Shown here one piece after another: positions 45,689 through 47,476 of a DNA stretch of 47,534 nucleotides. Below the pieces are notes generated by a model. The model was not told where the DNA came from and ran no database searches. It worked only from the letters and a program-made list of their open reading frames with translations. Within the stretch, counting starts at the first letter, position 1; every line of letters starts with the position of its first letter. The stretch is from Parcubacteria group bacterium GW2011_GWD2_38_11 (GTDB lineage: Bacteria > Patescibacteriota > Minisyncoccia > Moranbacterales > GWC2-37-73). The stretch covers positions 1-47,534 of the forward strand of contig LBTZ01000003.1 in NCBI GenBank assembly GCA_000992325.1, in the 5' to 3' direction. Position numbers and translations under genes: made by a program.

Positions 45689-47476
45689 CTACAAATTTTT
45701 TACTAAATACGTATCCTGCAGACGGTATCCGTTTTTTCGATAATATCCACGAACGCCAACTCCTGAAATTACTACAATCTTGCCAATACCAAATTCTTCT
45801 TTGGCAATTCTCTCCGCTTCAAGTAATAATTTCTTTCCAAGGCCGATGTGTTGTGGAGAGGTTGAGTCTTGGGTGTCGATCTTTGTTAATTTTCCGTAAG
45901 TATGAACTTCTCTAATGATAGCTGCATTTTTGAGAGCAGGTAATAACTTGTATAATTTGTCATTCCCGTGAAAACGGGTCTTGATGCCCCTTGAGGGTAA
46001 ATCCAAGTTTTTAAGATTAGTTTGTGTGAGACTGGATTCCGGATCAAGTCCGGAATGACACAACCCAGGGATGCGTAAACGCAGAAGAGCAAATAATTTT
46101 TTCTTGCCCGCCTCGACTCGCGGAGACGTCCGCTCGTCGACGCGAGGCGGGTCCGGTGAAACATATTGCAGGAAAATTTCCGTGCCATCCGAGGCTTTGT
46201 AATCTATTCTGTCTAAGATTATTTCATTTTGAGTGGTACCCGCCCGCAACGCTTCGCGTAGCGATGCGGGCGGGGATCCTGCACCAACTTCTCTGCAACG
46301 AATGCAGGGACAATGAGATTGGGGGATGATAATTTGTCTAAGATTGGAAACAGTGGGTCCAGCTATGATTGACGGAGTGGGTACGTCGCGAATAAGACGG
46401 GCAATGCGCACATATGGCACAATTGCTTCGTTTTTTATCTTCACTACAAGCTTCTCAAACGCTTGGTTTGTCAGTGGGACGTACTTTTTTTTCTTCCAGA
46501 TGTCGTATAGCTCACTGTTTTTTAAAACGACTGTTGGGTATATTTTGAGCATATCAGGTTGAAATTTAGGGCCTTCAAAAAGGGCCTTAAACATCTCAAA
46601 ATCGCGCTTTGGGGTGGATCCTGGTAGTCCTGGCATCATATGATAGTTTATCTTGAAACCACTGTCCTTGAGCATTTTGGTGGCATCTATGGTGCTTTGG
46701 ATGAGGTGTCCACGCTTGTTTAATTCAAGCACGTCGTCGTATATGCTTTGCACACCAAGTTCAACTCTGGTGCAACCAAGTTGGCGAAAATTAAAAATTT
46801 CTTTTTCATCAATATAGTCCGGTCGCGTCTCCAAAGTGAGCCCAATAATCCTATGCTTGGCAGTTTCATTTTTCTTCTGTTGGTATAAAAGCTCTTCATC
46901 GGGCGTCCTTGCTGACTTTATAAACTTTATAACTTTACGAACTTGAGTATATTCATTCGCTCCCTGAAAACATCTGGTAATAAATTTTTTCTGATACGAC
47001 TTTGGCAAAAAAGAAAATGTTCCACCCATCACAATTAATTCTATTTTATCTGTGCGGTGGCCATTAAGTTCCAATGAGCGCAAGCGATTTTGCATTTGGC
47101 GATAGGGATCAAACTGCGAATCAATTGCGCGCATCACGGCTGGTTCATTGGAAAGATAACTCTTAGGCATATCTTTTTCGCTGGGGCAATAAATACATTT
47201 ACCAGGACAGGGATATGATTTGGTAAGCACCGCCACCACAGCCACACCGGATTGGGTGCGAATCAAGCGACTCATCAAAGCTTCCTCAAATTTTTCACTG
47301 CGTTTAATTTTCTTTTGCTCGACTAATTTGTTATATCTATCTCGCAGATCAGCATTGGTCGGCATGGCAACGCCAAATTTTTTGCACAGACTTTTTTTGA
47401 GTTTGCCAAAATCTCCCTGATTTTCAGAAAGCTCGGAGATTGCACTTATTATGTATTTATCGTAAGGTAAATTCAT
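45689..47476 (-). CDS. elp3: Elp3-type radical-SAM/GNAT tRNA wobble-uridine enzyme with repeat insertions
   Basis: 595 residues. Elp3 family: radical-SAM domain with YPCPGKCIYC (C90, C94, C97), MGGTFSFLPKSYQ, TLETRPDYIDE, ELGVQSIYDDV, MMPGLPGSTPKRD; C-terminal GNAT with IREVHTYGKL, GLGKKLLLEAE and VRGYYRKNGY. Acts on U34 of tRNA (carboxymethyl-type modification). The protein has absorbed several repeat elements in-frame: VRKVIKFIKSA (~178-188), GSPPASLREALRAG (~401-413), PPRVDERTSPRVEAG (~442-457) and SGLDPESSLT...HGNDK (~472-506). They lie mostly in the GNAT part and between strands; core motifs remain. A TCTAAA lies 6 nt before the ATG. Confidence 0.95.
   Translation of the reverse strand: MNLPYDKYIISAISELSENQGDFGKLKKSLCKKFGVAMPTNADLRDRYNKLVEQKKIKRSEKFEEALMSRLIRTQSGVAVVAVLTKSYPCPGKCIYCPSEKDMPKSYLSNEPAVMRAIDSQFDPYRQMQNRLRSLELNGHRTDKIELIVMGGTFSFLPKSYQKKFITRCFQGANEYTQVRKVIKFIKSARTPDEELLYQQKKNETAKHRIIGLTLETRPDYIDEKEIFNFRQLGCTRVELGVQSIYDDVLELNKRGHLIQSTIDATKMLKDSGFKINYHMMPGLPGSTPKRDFEMFKALFEGPKFQPDMLKIYPTVVLKNSELYDIWKKKKYVPLTNQAFEKLVVKIKNEAIVPYVRIARLIRDVPTPSIIAGPTVSNLRQIIIPQSHCPCIRCREVGAGSPPASLREALRAGTTQNEIILDRIDYKASDGTEIFLQYVSPDPPRVDERTSPRVEAGKKKLFALLRLRIPGLCHSGLDPESSLTQTNLKNLDLPSRGIKTRFHGNDKLYKLLPALKNAAIIREVHTYGKLTKIDTQDSTSPQHIGLGKKLLLEAERIAKEEFGIGKIVVISGVGVRGYYRKNGYRLQDTYLVKNL
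45959..46061. mobile_element. In-frame MITE/dRS3-like element inside elp3
   Basis: Ends GTCATTCCCGTGAAAACGGG and ATTCCGGATCAAGTCCGGAA (each an imperfect dyad), oriented like the ends of the intergenic element at 11.4 kb. On the gene strand it reads CHSGLDPESS... and ...RFHGND, peptide strings known from repeated elements in many bacterial genomes. Confidence 0.75.
46107..46151. repeat. GC-rich compound palindrome inside elp3
   Basis: Outer arms CCCGCCTCG / CGAGGCGGG, inner arms CGCGGA / TCCGC. Read in-frame as PPRVDERTSPRVEAG. Confidence 0.85.
46239..46274. repeat. GC-rich palindrome inside elp3
   Basis: Arms CCCGCCCGCA / TGCGGGCGGG with inner CGCT / AGCG and a 6-nt loop. Read in-frame as PPASLREALRAG. 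Confidence 0.9.
46915..46944. repeat. In-frame AAAGTTTAT-type array inside elp3
   Basis: ACTTTAT, AAACTTTAT, AACTTTACG, AACTTG: the reverse orientation of the arrays at 11.35 and 15.25 kb. Read as QVRKVIKFIKSA. Confidence 0.65.

Follow-up and report, generated by a model that had tools for sequence, protein, structure and literature searches.

The elp3 gene of the window, by which we mean the whole stretch of 47,534 nucleotides that was analysed, has very likely been invaded by small selfish palindromes of the REP-like or RPE-like kind, which entered a working gene and whose translation gives the enzyme additional surface loops. Throughout, the genome holding the window (G000, hereafter the host genome) was compared with a sister genome (G005), which served as reference for the insert calls. 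All genomes compared are metagenome assemblies.

Repeat-derived loops in Elp3

The gene (45689-47476, minus strand) encodes an intact radical SAM/GNAT tRNA uridine(34) modification enzyme of 595 aa, as indicated by its ORF, TIGR01211, the Pfam domains Radical_SAM and Radical_SAM_C, an AlphaFold2 (AF2) model and Foldseek. The TIGR01211 ELP3 score, 507.7 bits, clears the cut-off of 350, and the closest named relatives belong to Ca. Moranbacteria. The Elp3 fold is well predicted (mean pLDDT 87.1), and the nearest solved structures are Elp3 proteins, with target-normalised TM-scores up to 0.90.

Four repeat-derived sites are found in coding order, namely A (46906-46951), C (46239-46274), D (46107-46151) and E (45958-46060), all on the minus strand. 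Site A is an AT-rich dispersed repeat (AAAGTTATAAAGTTTATAAAGTC) with about 41 matches in the genome, read as KVIKFIKS in a radical-SAM loop, which in relatives is occupied by other repeat families. Element C is a GC palindrome of 36 bp, an inverted repeat of 18+18 bp with a complementarity of 89%, and is read as the 12 residues (S)PPASLREALRAG in the linker directly past the CRC zinc-type cysteines. Element D, a compound GC palindrome of 45 bp (19-bp arms, 79% complementary, with a loop of 7 nt), is read as the 15 residues PPRVDERTSPRVEAG in the turn joining two strands of the GNAT domain. Element E, about 103 bp long and located in a GNAT loop, has TGTCATTCC...GGAATGACA ends, each of which additionally forms its own hairpin, and is read as CHSGLDPESS...RFHGND. 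Relative to the sister gene, C and D are clean insertions of 36 and 45 bp, and at E a short loop has been replaced by a longer one. No target-site duplication was seen at the inserts.

An earlier note on this DNA had described three different palindromic elements read through in elp3, about 60 residues added to its GNAT half, and a further array at 46915. The three elements are indeed present and in frame within one ORF, and a comparison with the sister Elp3, which lacks them, gives a total of about 62 residues (12 + 15 + a net gain of about 35). Only D and E, however, lie in the GNAT domain proper, C being in the linker. Likewise, the repeat at 46915 exists, but it is the AT-rich dispersed repeat of site A, in the radical-SAM half of the protein.

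The alignments identify C and D as derived insertions, and E as a derived or variable one. Element E is probably older, because the elp3 gene L054 carries an element of the same family at the identical position, variants ending in TGTCAT...ATGACA are present in L052 and L053, and apparent remnants (GGGAATGAC) persist in L059 and L082. If so, the sister genome may have lost an older element at this site.

Constraint on the gene

Judged from its sequence, elp3 is not decaying, because its core is under normal purifying selection and the residues of the acetyl-CoA pocket are invariant. Its dN/dS against the sister gene is 0.073 (genome median 0.076, from 460 pairs), and 0.075 in the GNAT part with the loops masked, where synonymous sites are near saturation. 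The shared core is 94% identical between the two proteins, and the reading frame runs through all three inserts with zero stops or frameshifts. The radical-SAM cysteines C90, C94 and C97 are invariant among 62 Elp3 sequences, and so are K144, K275, E523 and Y578, the counterparts of K77, K193, E386 and Y441, which line the acetyl-CoA pocket of D. mccartyi Elp3 (DmcElp3; PMC6367351).

The closeness of the three inserts, and the fact that the loop at site E is rearranged in relatives too, would suit a decaying gene in which inserts pile up through lost constraint in the GNAT half. Given a dN/dS at the genome median both in the gene and in its GNAT part, the intact ORF and the invariant pocket residues, such decay is extremely unlikely, and neither the loss of constraint that the earlier note had offered as one explanation, nor the decaying pseudogene that it had named as a danger to its reading, is what we find. 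Its other explanation, that the region tolerates insertion, fares well. AF2 places all three inserts in low-confidence surface loops, where the note had proposed to look for them, and these loops are reused for other inserts in relatives. The lowest-confidence stretches of the model are sites A, C, D and E, besides a shorter dip near residues 71-80.

An insert entering the acetyl-CoA blocking loop was also considered, and was rejected for the window after the position of the loop had been mapped. By structural match, the region equivalent to DmcElp3 390-406 (PMC6367351) lies at 45848-45898 (minus strand). The relative L019 does carry an insert in the blocking loop.

Palindromes across the host genome

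The inserts are not chance sequences, because strong hairpins are in large excess in the host genome (246, against 13 in a shuffled genome) and because the elements have many genomic copies: 20 to 55 each for the E ends, C and the 46915 repeat, with only 3 for D. Insertions of at least 7 aa between orthologues of the host and sister genomes numbered 84, and 46 of these were palindromic or repeated. Of these 46, 28 are element-like in-frame inserts that are specific to the host genome and located in non-overlapping conserved genes. The genes carrying inserts, named by reading the sequences alone, include those for S2 (rpsB), S9, PheT, DNA polymerase I, UvrD, NusA, RpoD, GrpE, TrpRS, ValRS, LigA and TatD. 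A reverse search, which merges in-frame events, returned 1 frame-breaking element insertion, a count that comes from a different method than the 28 in-frame ones. E-type elements, with about 42 members in the host genome, are strongly depleted in conserved genes (4/42).

Since four genes, including elp3, hold at least two inserts relative to the sister genome, where 0.95 would be expected (P = 0.009), elp3 is one among several tolerant genes. For elp3 alone, the multiple inserts have P = 0.004, a value not corrected for its selection from 558 genes. The concentration that had been called striking is thus real as far as the inserts go, but it is less peculiar to elp3 than it seemed, with in-frame inserts found genome-wide in housekeeping genes.

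Several composite arrangements were also observed. In polA (G000:C4:10952-11047), a C palindrome is nested in frame within another C palindrome, and in a glycosyltransferase gene (G000:C1:49851-49982) a C palindrome is split, again in frame, by an unrelated stretch of 72 bp. Inside an ORF of 593 aa (G000:C14:12836-14125), the parS-like palindrome TGTTCCACGTGGAACA forms arrays whose copies are read in all three frames (FHVEQ, VPRGT, CSTWN). In its orthologue (G005:C2:28683-29607), one parS-like copy is interrupted by a second palindrome.

Reading frame and habitat of family C

Copies of C were counted by family pattern, as a simple hairpin scan had missed imperfect copies. The host genome has 29 of them, 17 in conserved genes; there, all 17 have lengths that are a multiple of three, and 16 are read in one frame. 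Across genomes, and with duplicates removed by hand, about 41 copies use the hydrophilic PARNASHSDAGG-type frame, 7 the other open frame and 1 the stop-bearing frame. The 41:7 bias between the two stop-free frames is strong (P = 6e-7). The copy in the elp3 gene of the window uses the minority frame. A strictly one-orientation insertion of C, suggested by the host genome, was dropped, because other genomes show both orientations.

Translation of the inserts is implied by the multiples of three and by the frame bias, from which we infer that the Elp3 inserts are translated as well. The same two features bear on another scenario, in which the hairpins are cut out of the mRNA, or the ribosome skips them, yielding a protein without inserts. 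Stable hairpins are present within the coding sequence, and ribosomal bypassing elements exist in other systems. Skipped elements, however, need neither lengths in multiples of three nor a preferred frame, whereas the C inserts in conserved genes of the host genome are multiples of three and stop-free, and C inserts show a strong frame bias. Removal or skipping is therefore highly unlikely.

The coding share of C (17/29) is statistically indistinguishable from 0.63, the share of conserved coding DNA (P = 0.70). Matches to C occur in 32 of the 54 genomes of the order (up to 3 mismatches) and, scattered elsewhere in the phylum, in 10 of 286 genomes (up to 1 mismatch), the two rates not being directly comparable at these differing thresholds. 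It is conceivable, although rather doubtful, that the 36-bp family is adapted to life within genes, and that conserved coding sequence is its normal habitat rather than a place of rare survival. What suggests this is its length of 12 codons, the lack of stops in two of three frames, and the hydrophilic Pro/Gly-flanked loop peptide (PARNASHSDAGG) that it provides in the favoured frame. If true, Elp3, IleRS and other proteins of Patescibacteria would owe their diversity at fixed loops to mobile DNA.

Recurrent use of the Elp3 loops in relatives

The 62 elp3 genes together contain 27 strong hairpins, where codon shuffling gives 6.8 in all, and 24 of the 27 fall in variable loops, a share that is descriptive, the loop borders having been drawn with knowledge of the inserts. 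About ten palindrome families have invaded Elp3 loops across related Patescibacteria. The apparent hot-spot character of Elp3 would follow from its four or five tolerant loops. It may not be the sole recurrent target, since palindromic inserts also recur in the isoleucyl-tRNA synthetase of different genomes (L245, L254, L301 and G005:C1:151913-153607).

Repeated strikes on the same loops in relatives, together with a frame bias that favours a hydrophilic peptide, could indicate that the inserts are adaptive and provide Elp3 with new interaction surfaces or regulation. Yet the same peptides also turn up in proteins as unrelated as ribosomal proteins, NusA, RpoD and PolA, the Elp3 inserts have been gained, replaced and partly deleted among close relatives, and tolerance by itself accounts for the loops. 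An adaptive role is consequently very unlikely.

Selfish palindromes, the explanation that we prefer, may have reached a given site by more than one route. Site D holds D-type palindromes in the window, L055 and L057; in L062 one lies two codons farther upstream, and L060 has a D-family palindrome at site C. The inserts at site D of the window, L055 and L057 could derive from between-species recombination instead of separate insertions, as their insertion point is identical to the base and the Elp3 core tree requires three changes to account for the D label at this site. On the other hand, the codons that flank the insert in the window agree with those of its own genus (L052) and not with L055, and the inner parts of the palindromes differ. 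We consider recombination at this site unlikely, though far from negligible.

Proposed movement of the palindromes

The palindromes would spread as single-stranded hairpin DNA that is copied, probably by RAYT-type tyrosine transposases, and insertion would be roughly blind as to target. A copy would be lost if it broke the frame, introduced a stop or placed a poor peptide in the core, and retained if it lay in a tolerant loop.

RAYT (Y1) genes are widespread in the relatives. Many are flanked by their own palindromes, and several hold their own palindrome in frame inside the ORF; in the sister genome, GTAG-ended palindromes flank RAYTs. A Y1 transposase (Y1_Tnp) was not found in the host genome, which is about 90% complete. 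The sampled RAYT loci of relatives had neither C- or D-type palindromes nor paired E-type ends, and for families C, D and E no RAYT gene flanked by its own-family palindrome was found. In genome G042, however, one palindrome flanks a RAYT gene, recurs within it, and is present in identical form at site E of the elp3 gene (L077). Because of this exact match, the sequences support RAYT-type movement for this one palindrome family.

In four different RAYT proteins of relatives (L288, L294, L296 and L277), the palindrome that flanks the gene is repeated in frame, apparently always in one shared internal stretch just before the HUH motif (e.g. NSFPRLSLGKRKPLVKLVCFSLLPNHYHF).

Comparison with known palindromic elements

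Element E presumably resembles the dRS3-like or MITE-like repeats, a likeness that lies in the GTCATTCC ends and in the large number of relatives in the host genome. It differs in that E-type elements are rare in conserved genes here.

Intragenic REPs with GTAG or CGTC tags, 20-40 bp in length and occurring as singles and compounds, are known from PolA, UvrD, DNA ligase and tRNA synthetase genes, and one REP site is reported to be common to recB of two species (PMC3733652). The elements described here are similarly short, single or compound palindromes inside such genes, and RAYTs of the sister genome have GTAG-ended palindromes. Families C and D, in contrast, are without an evident GTAG or CGTC tag, and the search returned no RAYT accompanying them. 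Furthermore, REPs reportedly seldom overlap coding regions (PMC12306157), whereas C is about equally frequent in conserved coding DNA and elsewhere.

Rickettsia palindromic elements (RPEs; Ogata 2000, 2002), as PMC10969869 and PMC6649704 describe them, comprise several families that have entered numerous unrelated housekeeping genes in frame and are read as extra peptide. By description, the elements of the window share each of these traits. The RPEs of those accounts are rickettsial and about 150 bp long, in contrast to the main family here, which is 36 bp long and hosted by Ca. Moranbacteria.

As in intragenic REP/RPE-like elements, we find short dispersed palindromes that are in frame in genes and absent from orthologues, D having only few copies. 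Our literature search returned no report of such elements in Patescibacteria, which does not prove their absence. Within the literature searched, the new features are the host lineage, a short 12-codon family as frequent inside conserved genes as outside them, and the recurrent occupation of the same Elp3 loops by numerous families.

In these small-genome bacteria such palindromes reach even into ribosomal proteins, the principal sigma factor and DNA polymerase I, and they explain recurrent odd peptides (PARNASHSDAGG, CHSGLDPESS, MLKQVQHD) in proteins predicted from these genomes. Such peptides can mislead annotation and structure prediction. Elp3 offers a natural insertion scan, in which the same four or five loops repeatedly take foreign peptides and the catalytic core stays unchanged. 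The elements of the window are of a known type, met here in a new lineage, and with them the range of protein-coding palindromes widens beyond Rickettsia and a few other bacteria to the small-genome Patescibacteria.
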